From Pseudovibrio brasiliensis (GTDB lineage Bacteria > Pseudomonadota > Alphaproteobacteria > Rhizobiales > Stappiaceae), in assembly GCF_018282095.1 (NCBI RefSeq), contig NZ_CP074126.1:3328341-3392340 (forward strand): 64,000 bases of DNA, written 5' to 3'. This document shows, in pieces, positions 43,961-49,367 of this stretch (the stretch's first letter is position 1; each line of letters begins with the position of its first letter). A program made the translations under genes and the position numbers. The notes beneath the pieces were generated by a model, which made no database searches, was not told the origin of the DNA, and saw only the letters and a list, made by a program, of their open reading frames with translations.

Positions 43961-44732
43961 TTTTGCGGGATTGGTGAAAGCAAAGTTGGGCGGAAGCAAA
44001 GGGCAAATTGGCCTTTTGGTTTTCGCTCTCTTGCTTTTCTGGTTTGGTCCTGCCGCCGCACAAAGCATCTCAATTGACTTCGGCGGTGGTGAAGGCGATT
44101 CCGTAACAGAGCGCGCCGTTCAACTGGTCATGCTGTTAACGGTGCTTTCTCTTGCACCAAGCATCCTGATCATGGTGACGAGCTTCACACGTATTGTTGT
44201 GGTGCTCTCCCTGCTCCGCTCAGCCATCGGCTTGCAGACTGCCCCACCAAACGCAGTCATGCTTTCCCTTGCCTTGTTCCTGACAGCATTCGTCATGATG
44301 CCTGCCTTTGAAACTGCATGGGATCTGGGCGCAAAGCCTATGATTGAAGGAACCATCGAGCCACAGGAAGCCTTTGAGCGTGCCTCCGAGCCGTTCCATC
44401 AGTTCATGCGTCAACAAGTGCGTGAATCTGATCTGTTGCTCTTTCAGGAACTCGCCAAGGCCCCTACCCCAGAAACACCAGAGGATCTCAGCCTCCGCGT
44501 TCTGGTACCGGCCTTCATGATCAGTGAACTGCGCCGCGCCTTCGAGATCGGCTTCCTGCTGTATCTCCCGTTCCTGATCATCGACCTTGTGATCGCATCC
44601 GTTCTCATGTCCATGGGTATGATGATGCTGCCACCCATCGTGATCTCCCTGCCCTTCAAGCTCATCTTCTTTGTGCTTGTCGACGGCTGGCAACTGATCG
44701 CGGGCAGTCTGGTCCGAAGTTTCGGCGGTTAG
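43935..44732 (+). CDS. fliP: Flagellar export protein FliP
   Basis: Export-gate pore subunit, 265 residues. A signal-like N-terminal helix (LLVFALLLFWFGPAAAQ) is followed by the canonical LSLAPSILIMVTSFTRIVVV and LRVLVPAFMISELRRAFEIG and PPIVISLPFKLIFFVLVDGW. The start overlaps the end of fliO, which suggests translational coupling. A 540-base non-coding stretch follows. Confidence 0.97.
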   Translation: MTSRPTLNNFAGLVKAKLGGSKGQIGLLVFALLLFWFGPAAAQSISIDFGGGEGDSVTERAVQLVMLLTVLSLAPSILIMVTSFTRIVVVLSLLRSAIGLQTAPPNAVMLSLALFLTAFVMMPAFETAWDLGAKPMIEGTIEPQEAFERASEPFHQFMRQQVRESDLLLFQELAKAPTPETPEDLSLRVLVPAFMISELRRAFEIGFLLYLPFLIIDLVIASVLMSMGMMMLPPIVISLPFKLIFFVLVDGWQLIAGSLVRSFGG

Positions 44733-44756
44733 CGCCGCTCTAATCATAGAAAGTAC

Positions 44757-44790
44757 GTCAGGGCTTGGCAGCATTTCACTAAGCTCTGAC
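44757..44790 (+). other. Hairpin shortly after fliP
   Basis: GTCAGGGCTT (44757-44766) pairs with AAGCTCTGAC (44781-44790), 10 bp with one wobble. No T-tract follows. It may be the fliP 3' hairpin or a flank of the structured RNA that begins near 44846. Confidence 0.45.
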
Positions 44791-44845
44791 GACACCCTCG
44801 CAAAACTTATCCCCCTTCCCAAAATCCGTCCTATCCTAACTCTCG

Positions 44846-45205
44846 CGCCCACGCATTCGGGCAGGAGTGGACCGTCCATTCCGTGGCGTGGGCGGGGTTG
44901 GGCTACCGGCATGAGGTAACGTATCGTGTCGGGAGGTCCGGTGAAGCGCCATACCCTATTGAGACCACAGTGGTAGTAGGGAGCTTGGGGTCGTTCCGGA
45001 GGGCGTCCGGTGGTGACAGGAAACTGTCAAAGGCATGAAGCGCATCTATGATGCGCAAACGTGCCTGTCGCGTCTGTTCGAGAGGGAGCCCGCGTGTTCA
45101 TGAGAAAAGGCCCGGGCGAGGCGAACAGCCAATGCCGAAGAAACACATCTAACAAGTAGCGCAGGCAGAGCCTGTTCGCCTTGCTCCACCCGTTGAAACG
45201 GGGTC
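44846..45205 (+). ncRNA. Candidate large structured non-coding RNA, family not assigned
   Basis: No open frame, but dense nested inverted repeats. CGCCCACGC 44846-44854 pairs with 44886-44894 around an inner hairpin 44864-44870/44876-44882. CCCTA 44954-44958 pairs with 44977-44981 with inner ACCA/TGGT. TGACAG-GAAA-CTGTCA lies at 45014-45029. AGGCA 45031-45035 pairs with 45062-45066 and encloses GCGCAT/ATGCGC 45040-45056. CTGTTCG 45074-45080 pairs with 45122-45128 and encloses GCCCG/CGGGC 45088-45117. CAGGC/GCCTG lies at 45162-45174 and CCCGT-TGAA-ACGGG at 45189-45202. The GAAA and TGAA loops favour the plus strand. CTGTTCGCC at 45172-45180 can also pair with 45120-45128, an alternative to the 45074 stem. 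It does not show RNase P, tmRNA, SRP or 6S signatures. Ends are approximate. Confidence 0.6.
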
Positions 45206-45217
45206 CTCAAACACAAA

Positions 45218-45241
45218 CACCGCCGGGATAGCCCAGCGGTG
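45218..45241 (-). terminator. Terminator of the TPR-protein operon (minus strand)
   Basis: CACCGC / GCGGTG with inner GGG/CCC; on the minus strand TTTGTGTTTG follows. It lies just after the stop of the TPR gene at 45269. Confidence 0.65.
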
Positions 45242-45268
45242 CTAAAATGGTTTCAGGAAAAGACCAGC

Positions 45269-48200
45269 CTAAGCCGCCCCCTCGCTCTTATCGTTGGGAT
45301 AGAGCGAAGCCTCTTCGGTCGGAACAATCGGTGTCGCCGACAGGTACTGTCGTCTGTATTCCTCAAGGAAGGACACCAGACTATCCCCTCCCCCAATTGA
45401 CTTGGCCACATTGAGGAACTCAACGCCGCGATCTTCAATCGGCCGCGTCACGACCTCAAAAGTCTCAGCCTGAGGAGACTGGCTCATCTTCTGAGAGTAT
45501 TTCTGGCGCAAACGCTCAAGCCCCAGACTATCCTCAGCCAGAGTGTAGGCAATCGCTGCGCGGATCACATCAACACGCTCATGATCGGCCAGCGGCACTT
45601 CATCAGACCAGCGGCTGCCATTCATCTGCTCCAGCTGCTCACCTGCCTTCTGCCAGGACCGTGCGGACCAAAGCGTATCAGCACGCAAACGATCCACGTC
45701 AGATCCAGACATATTGCGGACCAGCTCCAGCGCAAGGTCAGGCCGGCCACTCTCACTCAGGGCACGCGCTTCAACAATGTTGCGTTGACGCTGCAAAGCC
45801 GCTGGCAACTGCCCCTGACGGGTCTGGGAAAGCACACGAAGCGCTTCTTCGGGCTTCCGATTGAGCAAATAAACAACGGCAAGATCAGCCGCAATCTGCG
45901 CTCGGGCCGCACCCTTCAGGCGCTTGTCGATCTGGTGCCGCAACACAGAGGCCGCCTGATCCAGCAGATCCATATCGATCAATCGACTGGCCAGCATCCG
46001 GGCCATCTCATCACCCTGACGACCAGCAGGCACCAGCTCACGGAAGTCATAGAACAACGCAAGCGCCTTCACAGGCTCCAAAGCCTGCGCTTTGCCTTCA
46101 AGGAACAGAGTTGCAAAAACAGACCCCATTTCCTGCTGAATGTTCGAGGTGATCTCAGCGCCTGCATCCGACTGCACCGCCTGAGACATCGCCTCAAACG
46201 CCCGGCGATAATTGCCTTCTTGTGCATGCAGCTGCGCCATCAACCGAAGCGTCTTCAGCTCAGTCTCATCACCACGCCAGGAAGCGGCCAGACCTTCCAG
46301 TTCGGAGAGAGCCTCATCCGCATCGATCAAACCATCGCGATAGCGCAGCTTCACACTCAGAAACTTCGCTTCAGCCGCCTCCGGCCCATCACTGGAACGC
46401 ACCACCAGATCATAAACGTCCAGCGCCTCCTGAGAACGACCAGAAGCATCCGCAATCCGGCCACGCAGCAAGTCGTATTGGATCGCCTGCTCTTCGTTCA
46501 CATCAGACGGCTCAATCTGAGAAAGTGCCCCAAGCGCCTTGCCATAGTTGCCAAGCGCCAGATGCGTCTTCGCAGCAGCAAGGTTGAAATACACCTGCAG
46601 CATCACCGGGTAGTTCGCCATAACAGCAAGCCCGCGCCCCAGATTGGCATGCGCCCCCTGCCAGTCCCCCAGCGAAGAATGCGCAAAGGTCCGCCAGACC
46701 GCAGCATCAGGACTACTCGCCAACTCTGGCGCAGCCAGATACTCCAGCGCCGTTCCCGGACGCGCTGCCAGCATCTGTGCAGCACCCATCATCACGTTAA
46801 ACGTGGCATCTTTCTCGATAAGCGGATCGTCTTCTTCCATGATCCGCAAGGTGCCAATGGCTTCCTGAGCAAACCCGCTAGAGAGAAAAAAACGCGCCAT
46901 ATCCAACCGCGGACCGCTCAGCTCTTCAGGATCAGCCCGCGCAATAGCCTCTTCGTGAGCACGAAGGTTGCGCATGTAATCCTCAGGCTTCTGCTGGTGC
47001 AGCTGAGAAAACTCAATCAGCCCCGGCTGTGTCGGATCTTTCACATGAGCACCAATGGTCGTGCCTTTGGAAAGACCACGATTGGAAATCTTTAACCCAT
47101 CAGGTCGGGAGATCACCAGATCCTCACCGGAAAGCTCAACATCAATGCCATCCGCACTCGGAACAACAGCAAGCCCCTGCGAGCTGCGCAGGATCTGAAC
47201 CTGAGGGAACCGATGCGATTTCAAAATACCGCGAACAGGTGCAGCCCCACTGACCACGTAAATACGGTCACCAACGCTCTTGTCCGTCAACACATGAAGA
47301 CGCCCACTCTCACCAAACGGCAAACGCAGAACATTGGAGCCATCCCCCTGAACGTTCCGCTCCACATCAACCGGCTCAGTCTTTGTCGAGATGGAAGGCC
47401 CCAGAGTAATCGCCCAGGCTTCATCCTGATACTCGATGGAAATCAGCGTGGTCCGCTTCAGATCAAACCGCAGAACCTGCGCAGCATCAACTTCTTCAAG
47501 CTCAACGTTACGAGCCAGATCACTCAAAACAGCAGGAATACCGCGCCCATCAAGATGCTCAGTACTATCAAAAACAGCCCAGACCTTGTCATTCCGGCGG
47601 AAAACAGCAGCCCCCACTTCCCCTTCAAATGGGAAGACGAGACGCACAGTATCGCCGATGCGATATGTTTCAACACCAACAACCTGACCAGCGGCATCAT
47701 TCTCTTCCTGAACGATGCTCTCTGCGGAAGCCCGGCGCGCAATCGGCAAGTCCTCGGCAACATCTGTCACCACGGGAGCCGTCGCAATCACAGGCTCACT
47801 CTGCTTCGCAACTTCATCATCAAGCGCCAGTGGAATGGACGTCTGCCCACCCGCATTAACAACTTCAGCAATCAGGTCCGTTTCCGGAATAACCTCAGCT
47901 GCAGGCGCCTCAGCAGTTTCCTGAGTAGCAGGTGCGGGTGCAACTTCCGGCGCTGGCGCTTCAGCCACAACTTCTGGCTCAGCCGCCTCTGGTGCGTTCT
48001 CAGCAGCAGCACGAAGATCTTCTTCCGATGGCTTCGACTGCGGAATATCCGCAGGTGTCAGTCGGTCGACAGGCTCTCCAATCCGCTCAAGTTCAGGCTT
48101 GGCAACAGGCAATGGCATCTGCGCAAACTCAAGCCCCTCGGCCTCTTCACGAGGCTGGGGCTGCTGCACCTGCTGCGGTGCAGGCATCAAACTTCCCGGC

Positions 48201-49159
48201 GCATTTGCAGGCTGTTGAACAGCCACTGGAGCCGGAGCGGACGCGTTCTTATCGCCCAACGTGTTGATCACATTAGCCGCTCCCTGAGGAACGTCACCAT
48301 TGCCAAACAACTCATCACGGACGTCAGCAACACGTGGATCCAACTGCCCAATATCTTCAGGCGTCACATCCACAATCAGCTGCTTGCCTTCCTGAAACGA
48401 GCGCACATCAACACGAGGATCAACGATCATGTTGAAGATGAGATCATTGTCACGTGTCTTGGAAGCCACATCCAGAACCGTTCGCGGCAAACTGGCTTTG
48501 AACTGCGACAGATCCAGATCTGCAGCCTGATCAAACTTGACGCGAATATTGTTTCCATTCCGCTCAAACGAGCTGCCAACGTTCACGTTCCAATCAAAGA
48601 TCAAACGCGTAAACGTCGGATGTTCCCCGATCCGCAATTTGACTTTGATTTCCTGATCTTCAAGCGCATTTGCTTCTTCCAGCACCCGGATGCGCTCAAG
48701 CGCCTCCGCAGCCCGGCGTGCCAACTCGTCCACCACGTCCTGTGGCAACGAAGGCGGACGCCCTTCATAGCTGGAAGGCAGAAGATCAATAAACAGCTTC
48801 TCACCCGCTTCCATGCTGTTGATGTTCAACGGCTGCCGCAGAGCAAAACGCAGCGCCGCACCATCAGGATCAGTTCGGGCGATGGAGATGTAATCCATCA
48901 GCGCTTCCGGCACATCATCTACATCCGCCTCAATCCCCTCAGGGAAAGAGATGCGCAGAACGCTGGTGGAAATGGAGGCTTCATAAGGAGGCAAGAGCGA
49001 GCGGTCCGGGAATGTAATCACCATCCGCGCAAAGGTGCCGGTGTCCTCAACCTCAACAACAGCCGGAGCAGGCTCGGCCCACGCACTCAAAACACTGCTT
49101 CCCAGCGCAGTAGTGGCAAGCATCAGGGAGACAAGCCAGGCTTTGCCTTTGACCTTCAC
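45269..49159 (-). CDS. Large secreted TPR-repeat protein of the flagellar cluster
   Basis: About 1296 residues. GTG at 49159 with GGAG eight bases upstream is chosen because it puts a clear signal peptide (KAWLVSLMLATTALGSSVLSAWA) at the N-terminus; an in-frame ATG at 49261 would add 34 residues. After the signal come several beta-rich repeats (residues about 25-280) such as FARMVITFPDRSLLPPYEAS and TRLIFDWNVNVGSSFERNG, resembling AMIN-type domains. A Pro/Ala/Glu-rich linker follows (about 285-480), then a further beta region and many TPR-like helices (about 740-1250). Last gene of the fliL-fliM-DUF6468-motE operon, so probably periplasmic and linked to flagellar assembly or motor function. 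Exact function unknown. Confidence 0.75.
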   Translation of the reverse strand: MKVKGKAWLVSLMLATTALGSSVLSAWAEPAPAVVEVEDTGTFARMVITFPDRSLLPPYEASISTSVLRISFPEGIEADVDDVPEALMDYISIARTDPDGAALRFALRQPLNINSMEAGEKLFIDLLPSSYEGRPPSLPQDVVDELARRAAEALERIRVLEEANALEDQEIKVKLRIGEHPTFTRLIFDWNVNVGSSFERNGNNIRVKFDQAADLDLSQFKASLPRTVLDVASKTRDNDLIFNMIVDPRVDVRSFQEGKQLIVDVTPEDIGQLDPRVADVRDELFGNGDVPQGAANVINTLGDKNASAPAPVAVQQPANAPGSLMPAPQQVQQPQPREEAEGLEFAQMPLPVAKPELERIGEPVDRLTPADIPQSKPSEEDLRAAAENAPEAAEPEVVAEAPAPEVAPAPATQETAEAPAAEVIPETDLIAEVVNAGGQTSIPLALDDEVAKQSEPVIATAPVVTDVAEDLPIARRASAESIVQEENDAAGQVVGVETYRIGDTVRLVFPFEGEVGAAVFRRNDKVWAVFDSTEHLDGRGIPAVLSDLARNVELEEVDAAQVLRFDLKRTTLISIEYQDEAWAITLGPSISTKTEPVDVERNVQGDGSNVLRLPFGESGRLHVLTDKSVGDRIYVVSGAAPVRGILKSHRFPQVQILRSSQGLAVVPSADGIDVELSGEDLVISRPDGLKISNRGLSKGTTIGAHVKDPTQPGLIEFSQLHQQKPEDYMRNLRAHEEAIARADPEELSGPRLDMARFFLSSGFAQEAIGTLRIMEEDDPLIEKDATFNVMMGAAQMLAARPGTALEYLAAPELASSPDAAVWRTFAHSSLGDWQGAHANLGRGLAVMANYPVMLQVYFNLAAAKTHLALGNYGKALGALSQIEPSDVNEEQAIQYDLLRGRIADASGRSQEALDVYDLVVRSSDGPEAAEAKFLSVKLRYRDGLIDADEALSELEGLAASWRGDETELKTLRLMAQLHAQEGNYRRAFEAMSQAVQSDAGAEITSNIQQEMGSVFATLFLEGKAQALEPVKALALFYDFRELVPAGRQGDEMARMLASRLIDMDLLDQAASVLRHQIDKRLKGAARAQIAADLAVVYLLNRKPEEALRVLSQTRQGQLPAALQRQRNIVEARALSESGRPDLALELVRNMSGSDVDRLRADTLWSARSWQKAGEQLEQMNGSRWSDEVPLADHERVDVIRAAIAYTLAEDSLGLERLRQKYSQKMSQSPQAETFEVVTRPIEDRGVEFLNVAKSIGGGDSLVSFLEEYRRQYLSATPIVPTEEASLYPNDKSEGAA

Positions 49160-49367
49160 AGTGCGTGCTCCATGCAAGGCACGACGCGGCAGGTATGGTA
49201 AAGTGGCGCGCAGAAAGGAACGCTTCTGCCTATCCCCATTGTCGCCCCCAAAGTCGCGCATGCCCGATTCTTACTCCCTAAAATTAATTAGGTATCTGTA
49301 ACAATTGGCTATTAACGCAAGCTTACAGACTCCAGCATCAGGAGCGAAAAACCGCCAATTGGTTCCG

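Follow-up and report, generated by a model that had tools for sequence, protein, structure and literature searches.

Large bacterial RNAs of unassigned role are few. In bacterial rRNA operons, gene conversion homogenizes several dispersed copies of structured RNAs. CsrB-type sponge RNAs and other sRNAs sequester a regulator and act in trans in a dose-dependent manner. None of OLE, GOLLD and ROOL is known as a dispersed family of tens of promoter-bearing copies. HEARO/omega RNA (IscB, IsrB) is described as a large structured RNA, which measures 343 nt in one case (PMC9755519, PMC12286853), and the MRSC-65-2 motif is presented as a single long stem found in diverse phyla, often in dozens of copies per genome (PMC11109978).

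Here, a putative non-coding RNA gene of about 400 nt is described, the body of which covers positions 44846-45205 of the window (the whole analyzed stretch of 64,000 nt) on the fliP strand (+). Like HEARO/omega RNA as characterized in PMC9755519 and PMC12286853, it is a large structured RNA with copies between genes, but it has no Rfam match, no HNH or RRXRR domain among the scanned neighbours, its own upstream box and an internal variable part. With OLE, GOLLD and ROOL, as outlined in PMC12286853, it has in common that it is large, intricately folded, non-coding and of poorly understood role, whereas it is shorter (about 400 nt), occurs almost only in the Stappiaceae and matches no Rfam model. 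Dozens of copies per genome and covariation are shared with MRSC-65-2 as reported in PMC11109978. In contrast to that motif, the Pseudovibrio RNA is a many-helix fold with a box and a 3′ hairpin and is found almost only in one bacterial family. The several dispersed copies of a structured RNA, apparently kept alike by gene conversion, resemble the rRNA operons, although here the subtypes coexist and switch between sites and some species are without the RNA. Dose-dependent action in trans would be a possible common mode with the CsrB-type RNAs, which differ in that one binding motif is repeated instead of an elaborate fold with long-range helices. Large orphan bacterial RNAs are the kind that this family joins, and its multicopy, putatively promoter-bearing and converting organization sets it apart. 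No description of it was found in the open-licence literature searched, and this RNA family of marine Pseudovibrio bacteria is apparently uncatalogued.

The RNA unit and its putative promoter

The RNA region is located downstream of fliP (PF00813) and is followed on its other side by a convergent minus-strand gene of 1330 aa (45269-49261) with a weak TPR match. By comparison of copies, the unit was found to extend from a promoter-like box at 44802 to a hairpin at 45216-45243, close to the borders given in an earlier note on this DNA. The main parts are as follows.

44802..44816, plus strand: promoter-like box AAAACTTATCCCCCT; CTTAT is invariant in 62 copies of three species
44832..44837, plus strand: −10-like hexamer TATCCT (family consensus TANNCT), at constant spacing from the box
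44846..45208, plus strand: RNA body with conserved helices, from alignments and covariation
45216..45243, plus strand: 3′ hairpin, part of the unit; terminator-like score on the opposite strand only

The earlier note had described about 360 bases without an open frame, and this was borne out, since the longest frame on both strands of 44841-45208 is 51 aa, which is below the mean of 64 aa in 300 mononucleotide shuffles. A coding role of the RNA body was rejected, as a conserved open frame is absent. The folding energy of 44846-45205 was −167 kcal/mol, compared to a mean of −138.5 for dinucleotide shuffles (z −4.4), and for 44733-45268 the z score was −5.5; in both cases none of 100 shuffles was equal.

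In the scan of the whole window against Rfam 15, no family reached its gathering score. For 44700-45300, only three unrelated sub-threshold matches were obtained at E up to 10. Nine loci with diverged copies gave seven matches at E up to 2 (rRNA, tRNA, SAM_alpha and others), all of them outside the copies. A known RNA family was thus rejected for the window and the diverged copies, which agrees with the unassigned large structured RNA proposed in the earlier note. The GGUAACG loop presumably resembles loops of RNase P and 16S rRNA, and GCCGAAG...CAGGC is taken by us to resemble the glycine riboswitch; neither likeness is supported by a model. A SAM-alpha riboswitch at L042 1051-1128 (78.8 bits) is unrelated to the RNA family.

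The aligned copies follow a common plan, consisting of the box AAAACTTATCCCC, the hexamer TANNCT at a constant distance, about 7 bases and the RNA body, with a variable hairpin and then a terminator-like hairpin at the 3′ end. For the window copy, we infer a transcription start at about 44845. The box pattern AAANCTTATYCCCC has 23 exact matches in the genome of the window, 22 of which lie at 22 of its 27 copies (reversed control 0).

The same promoter-like box is carried by all 62 copies analyzed in three species, with two positions varying more than the others. Over 45 ortholog pairs, CTTAT is 100% identical, and identity along the 14 positions of AAAACTTATYCCCC ranges from 87 to 100%, with Y (71%) as the exception, all in copies that had been cut out at no more than 3 mismatches to the box, which favours apparent conservation. 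The 22 preceding positions show an identity of 24-51% per position and the spacer between box and hexamer 29-69%. For the first two and last two bases of TANNCT, the identity was 0.71-0.87, compared to about 0.5 in the spacer. Even though the copies were cut by box match, the conservation of box and hexamer would be the pattern expected from selection on a promoter. In the low-copy species the box varies (CTTGTCCCC, CTTATCCAC); two genomes (G011 and G012) hold copies with variant boxes, and the exact box is absent from them. When scanned for sigma-70 promoters, the box gave no match, as its spacing does not fit, and the sole plus-strand promoter-like match of the scan is at 45024, inside the RNA body.

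Exact boxes were also found apart from RNA copies. In the window's genome there is one, upstream of gltX (L329 2067; contig C1, 2623566), with TATTCT at the same spacing and no RNA copy; it may represent a shared promoter type, a remnant or chance. In genome G008 the exact box occurs five times apart from RNA copies (L337, L341, L345, L353 and L357), four times in repeat-rich DNA with further TATCCCC-like stretches. On contig C5 of G002 (L336) it precedes a gene that we take, from its reading, to be like plasmid repA. Given the five stray boxes of G008 and at least one more of G002, the association between box and RNA is not a strict one. Its use as a regulon marker was rejected, since the sites without a copy (gltX, G008 repeats, RepA-like gene) form no coherent set.

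The exact pattern of the 3′ hairpin has 33 matches in the genome, 27 at 21 of the 27 copies and 6 elsewhere (reversed control 3). As 27 of the 33 matches sit at copies, an unrelated repeat was rejected. In the window copy, the plus-strand tail behind the hairpin has no terminator score, and the hairpin region scores terminator-like on the minus strand.

Fold and covariation of the RNA body

Much of the fold could be worked out by covariation. In an alignment of 23 diverse full-length copies (A7), the 47 core pairs are 95.4% paired, and 31 of them show changes on both sides, a number that none of 500 shuffles equalled. Sliding the partners by one to three columns reduced the pairing to 38-47%. 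RNAalifold on 40 copies gave a 5′ domain with two-sided changes at 21 of 27 pairs, in which 0 of 500 shuffles reached any of five measures, and a 3′ domain with such changes at 6 of 17 pairs; in a more diverse set of 31 sequences, the 3′ domain is still 97.5% paired. A full-length alignment of 22 sequences added two long-range helices and the helix closing a hypervariable arm. The elements are listed below.

44847-44853/44887-44893, plus strand: P1 of the 5′ domain; two-sided changes at 7 of 7 pairs, 98.7% of cells paired
44866-44870/44876-44880, plus strand: P2, hairpin of the 5′ domain (44847..44893); two-sided changes at 3 of 5 pairs, 97.4% paired
44895-44899/45109-45113, plus strand: P3, long-range helix; four inner pairs 100% paired in A7
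44900..44939, plus strand: P4 hairpin; stem pairs with two-sided changes
44915-44923, plus strand: P4 loop GGTAACGTA; GTAACG (44916-44921) invariant in A7
44942-44948/45093-45100, plus strand: P3b, second and weaker long-range helix; covarying pairs in the 22-sequence alignment
44954..44978, plus strand: P5 hairpin, uncertain; from RNAalifold, 13-22 of 22 cells paired per pair
44996-45006/45070-45080, plus strand: P6; its five inner pairs are 97.4% paired and show two-sided changes at two positions
about 45007-45069, plus strand: hypervariable, subtype-specific arm closed by P6; length differs among subtypes
45115-45123/45177-45185, plus strand: P7 of the 3′ domain; two-sided changes at 5 of 9 pairs, 98.1% paired
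45134-45136/45164-45166, plus strand: P8, enclosed by P7; never varies, so that covariation is uninformative
45137-45144, plus strand: core loop GAAGAAAC of the 3′ domain; GAA invariant (23 copies, several genera)
45159-45163, plus strand: GCGCA of the core loop; GCGC invariant (23 copies, several genera)
45189..45202, plus strand: P9, variable hairpin (CCCG...CGGG); 13-21 of 22 cells paired per pair

P3 was found in the same sequences on which it was then tested, with a register chosen by eye; in this test, 78 of 80 cells were paired in 20 distinct strand pairs from 48 copies (shuffled mean 67.4; 0 of 20,000 shuffles). Its strands are fully exchanged in two other genera (GTGAC/GTCAC and GGAAG/CTTCC), and L055 and L100 each break one of the four pairs. 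P3b is 78-80% paired in A7, with one pair mostly gapped, and together with P5 it is less certain than the other helices. The outer pairs of P6 have 14-20 of 22 cells paired in the 22-sequence alignment. In the subtype of the window, P7 is extended by AACAG/CTGTT to 45172. The core loop (45137..45163), which lies within P8, contains a variable A/T-rich stretch of 14 nt in its middle, and most of the rest is nearly invariant.

The helices of the 5′ domain, which had been derived on the plus strand, contain 197 G-U versus 9 A-C cells, and the 3′ set contains 19 versus 3. This excess is compatible with the plus strand as the sense strand, in line with the assignment of the RNA to the fliP strand in the earlier note.

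The note had also listed two alternative partners for 45120-45128 and read them as a possible switch or pseudoknot. Both complementarities are present in the subtype of the window, so this part of the claim holds. The alternative pairing is not upheld by covariation: 45115-45123 pairs with 45177-45185 (P7), and the partner of 45074-45080 is 44996-45002, the outer part of P6. Since each alternative strand has its own conserved partner, no switch is indicated, and this candidate was rejected.

Compensatory changes in a conserved structure, as expected of an independent non-coding RNA gene, are found in this family. Together with the 27 sense copies, they confirm that the density of hairpins is above chance, as had been proposed from the letters.

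Copies, relatives and sites

A blastn search of 44733-45268 against its own genome returned 33 pieces. Six of these are long, namely the window copy and five others at 90-93% identity covering about 44802-45247, and the rest are diverged. Three covariance models were used, R1 for the 3′ domain, R2 for the 5′ domain and R3 as a more diverse 3′ model. R1 gave 30 matches in the genome of the window, consisting of 27 sense copies and 3 antisense echoes. All 27 are located on contig C1 (4.84 of 6.03 Mb), and the chance of no copy on the remaining 1.19 Mb (five smaller contigs) is 0.0026. The copies are intergenic as far as mechanical ORF calls show, and overlap only with mechanically called frames.

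In the family Stappiaceae, R1 had matches in 32 of 87 genomes and 4 of 7 genera. Within the genus of the window, 14 of 16 genomes were positive and two were without a copy; two genomes had 0 matches, three had 1-2, another three 7-9 and the other eight 24-30, counts that include antisense matches (3 of 30 in the window's genome) and are thus upper bounds for the other genomes. Three other genera contributed 18 genomes, each holding between one and four matches. Of the 297 genomes scanned in the order, R1 hit 5, three within the family and two weakly (G344 and G128), the match in G128 having an E value of 8.8e-4 and no clear core. In the order, 8 of 397 genomes were positive with R3, namely G344 and seven members of the family; in the class, R3 hit 1 of 385 genomes, and R2 likewise 1 of 385, namely its own. 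Stricter filters applied whenever a search covered more than 40 genomes. Outside its training set, R2 detected 5′ domains at E values of 4e-5 or better in 12 Roseibium-type loci, and gave weak matches (E 0.11 and 1.8) in two genera that are more distant. In a pattern scan of genome records, 17 of the 80 records among the matches listed (80 of at least 118 stretches) score with R1 in the sense orientation, and each of these 17 carries Pseudovibrio, Roseibium or Labrenzia in its title. By these searches, the family appears to be confined almost only to the Stappiaceae (Pseudovibrio, Roseibium and two further genera).

Genome G344, from another bacterial family, has two 3′-domain-like matches, with no recognizable 5′ domain at either. 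One lies at L371 (about 1504-1599), and the second is weaker and without an exact core. One of the two was in the R3 training set; the R3 match of L106, a member of that set, is not independent. Possibly, these matches represent a relative built on the 3′ domain alone.

Plasmid or phage carriage was rejected, as blastn found no match in the plasmid collection (72,556 records) or the phage collection (50,697 records), both of which may lack entries close to the genome of the window. Twenty viral contigs fit a loose pattern, none of which scores with R1 at E up to 0.1.

For the comparison of flanks, 19 of the 28 matches of G002 and 20 of the 26 of G015 were fetched, and 62 of 66 loci from three species were used (L303, L306, L317 and L328 were dropped). 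The 62 copies fall into 17 flank-matched groups across the three species, which indicates that the sites are old. Eight groups are trios matched by both flanks in all three pairs, and one is a merged cluster of 12 copies with common dispersed flank repeats.

The bodies at these sites group by genome and not by site. In 36 of the 45 ortholog pairs, each of the two copies has a paralog in its own genome to which it is closer than to its ortholog (29 of 38 without the merged 12-copy cluster); among the remaining nine pairs, the paralog is closer for one copy only in 6 and for neither in 3. One site has two ortholog pairs with an identity of only 62%, and the paralogs of these copies reach 91-95%. 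When the 62 bodies are placed on a tree, 16 changes suffice for the genome labels (shuffled mean 28.4; none of 200 shuffles was this low), and the labels of the 17 sites require 33, a figure given without a shuffle control. The promoter spacer or the 3′ end keeps the identity of the site at several loci whose bodies differ (3′ end of L052/L304/L312; spacer of L046/L293/L309). Gene conversion among dispersed copies, with switching between subtypes, would be the simplest reading.

The fliP site was read in 15 cases, the window's own genome included, and the full unit is present only in that genome and in G006. Only the hairpin is left in G002 and G015, and in G004 the site is cut by the contig end. 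Decay is visible in G009 (L123/L330), where a truncated 3′ piece of the unit directly follows fliP as a fusion. From the partial units in G009, G002 and G015, loss of sites by deletion is likely.

A dispersed repeat, GGATCCCGGCTC...GCCGGGATGACACC, was observed about 38 bases before the box of L052-L055 and of several G015 copies. By a loose pattern, it precedes 6 of 27 copies in the window's genome, 2 of 17 in G002 and 9 of 18 in G015. L042 and L043 have 374 exact upstream bases in common. Some copies may have spread together with neighbouring repeats.

Around the copies of the window's genome, 51 neighbour proteins were examined, 38 with and 13 without a Pfam family. They include enzymes, transporters, ribosomal protein L19, MutS, an IS110 transposase and a SMODS nucleotidyltransferase. 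No recurring partner was found among the 51 (38 with a Pfam family), and a linked protein partner was rejected. HNH, RRXRR and reverse transcriptase domains are absent among these 51 proteins (13 without a Pfam family). At 18 low-copy loci, no gene recurs besides the neighbours of related sites and a GIY-YIG nuclease. This small nuclease gene precedes the RNA at 3 of the 18 loci, all from related genera (L090 782-1183, L102 386-820, L109 2069-2359), and may be a chance neighbour, a repeat passenger or a clue to mobility. The IS110-family transposase gene (L040 3559-4746) adjoins one RNA copy and is the only mobile-element type among the 51 proteins. With this single IS110 and the GIY-YIG gene near 3 of 18 low-copy loci, a regularly associated mobilizing enzyme was not found. 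The SMODS-type gene, of the kind found in CBASS defence, also adjoins one copy (L048 3765-4382). A consistent downstream gene on the same strand, as for a riboswitch or attenuator, was not found; the downstream genes differ and lie on either strand.

Role of the RNA family

We consider it rather probable that the RNA is a stand-alone gene of about 400 nt that belongs to a family of trans-acting structural or sequestering RNA genes, with 27 copies in the window's genome. Each copy would be transcribed, and the folded RNA would have its effect in trans; a scaffold for a ribonucleoprotein or a sponge RNA with a sequestering role is the most likely form of this. The invariant loops (GTAACG; GAA...GCGC) may bind a protein or another RNA, the many copies could supply dose, and homologous gene conversion would keep the bodies alike.

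A selfish, non-autonomous mobile RNA element, comparable to HEARO-bearing insertion sequences, group II derivatives or SINE-like elements, with its enzyme supplied in trans and now largely immobile, is a possible though rather unlikely alternative. Many intergenic copies in varied contexts are read as a hint of a selfish element by the authors of PMC11109978, in the context of their motifs, and such copies, in varied orientations as well, are found here. The range from 0 to 27 copies within one genus, the fliP site filled in 2 of 15 cases with remnants in three others, the shared repeat before some copies, the upstream bases shared by L042 and L043, and the GIY-YIG (3 of 18) and IS110 (one copy) neighbours fit in as well. 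Against an element of this kind stand the 17 flank-matched groups with their eight both-flank trios, which mark old sites, and the boxes of individual sites that are conserved where the neighbouring DNA diverges. Furthermore, IS110 is the sole mobile-element type among the 51 neighbours (13 without a family), the five smaller contigs hold none of the 27 copies, and terminal inverted repeats were not noticed by eye. A multicopy RNA gene under gene conversion would fit better than an active transposon.

It is doubtful, but conceivable, that the RNA forms a new class of RNA machine (ribozyme or RNP core), encoded by a multigene family with reshuffled subtypes and a repertoire of hypervariable arms. 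Equally tentative is the corresponding account of the sites, in which dozens of promoter-bearing copies stay in place and subtypes are overwritten within the transcribed body. The overwriting could proceed via RNA by cDNA-templated conversion, which is conceivable because at several sites the exchanged tract lies within the body and the promoter spacer or 3′ end keeps the site identity. A catalytic RNA in the narrower sense, a new ribozyme expressed from many copies, is improbable: the multi-helix core, the long-range pairing and the invariant asymmetric loops have the look of ribozymes or large RNPs, but no Rfam ribozyme model matches.

A cis-acting element of the adjacent genes (riboswitch, attenuator or plain terminator) is very improbable. 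The minus-strand terminator score of the 3′ hairpin and its persistence alone at the fliP site of two species would suit a terminator, whereas the unit has its own upstream box and the neighbouring genes vary by site on both strands, which argues against a cis-element of any one gene. The orphan HEARO/omega RNA and the degenerate group II intron suggested in the earlier note agree with the locus in size and hairpin density only and can almost certainly be dismissed, as the models of both in Rfam 15 give no match, HNH, RRXRR and reverse transcriptase domains are absent among the 51 neighbour proteins (13 without a family), and an upstream box and a 3′ hairpin are part of the unit itself.

If the favoured reading of a trans-acting RNA gene family is true, a structured repeat present in many copies would prove to be a family of genes rather than a mobile element. 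Within the genus, the genomes form a natural series, from 0 over 1-2 and 7-9 to 24 or more matches, and subtypes switch between old sites. Dosage, gene conversion and function of the RNA would then be directly testable in culturable marine bacteria.
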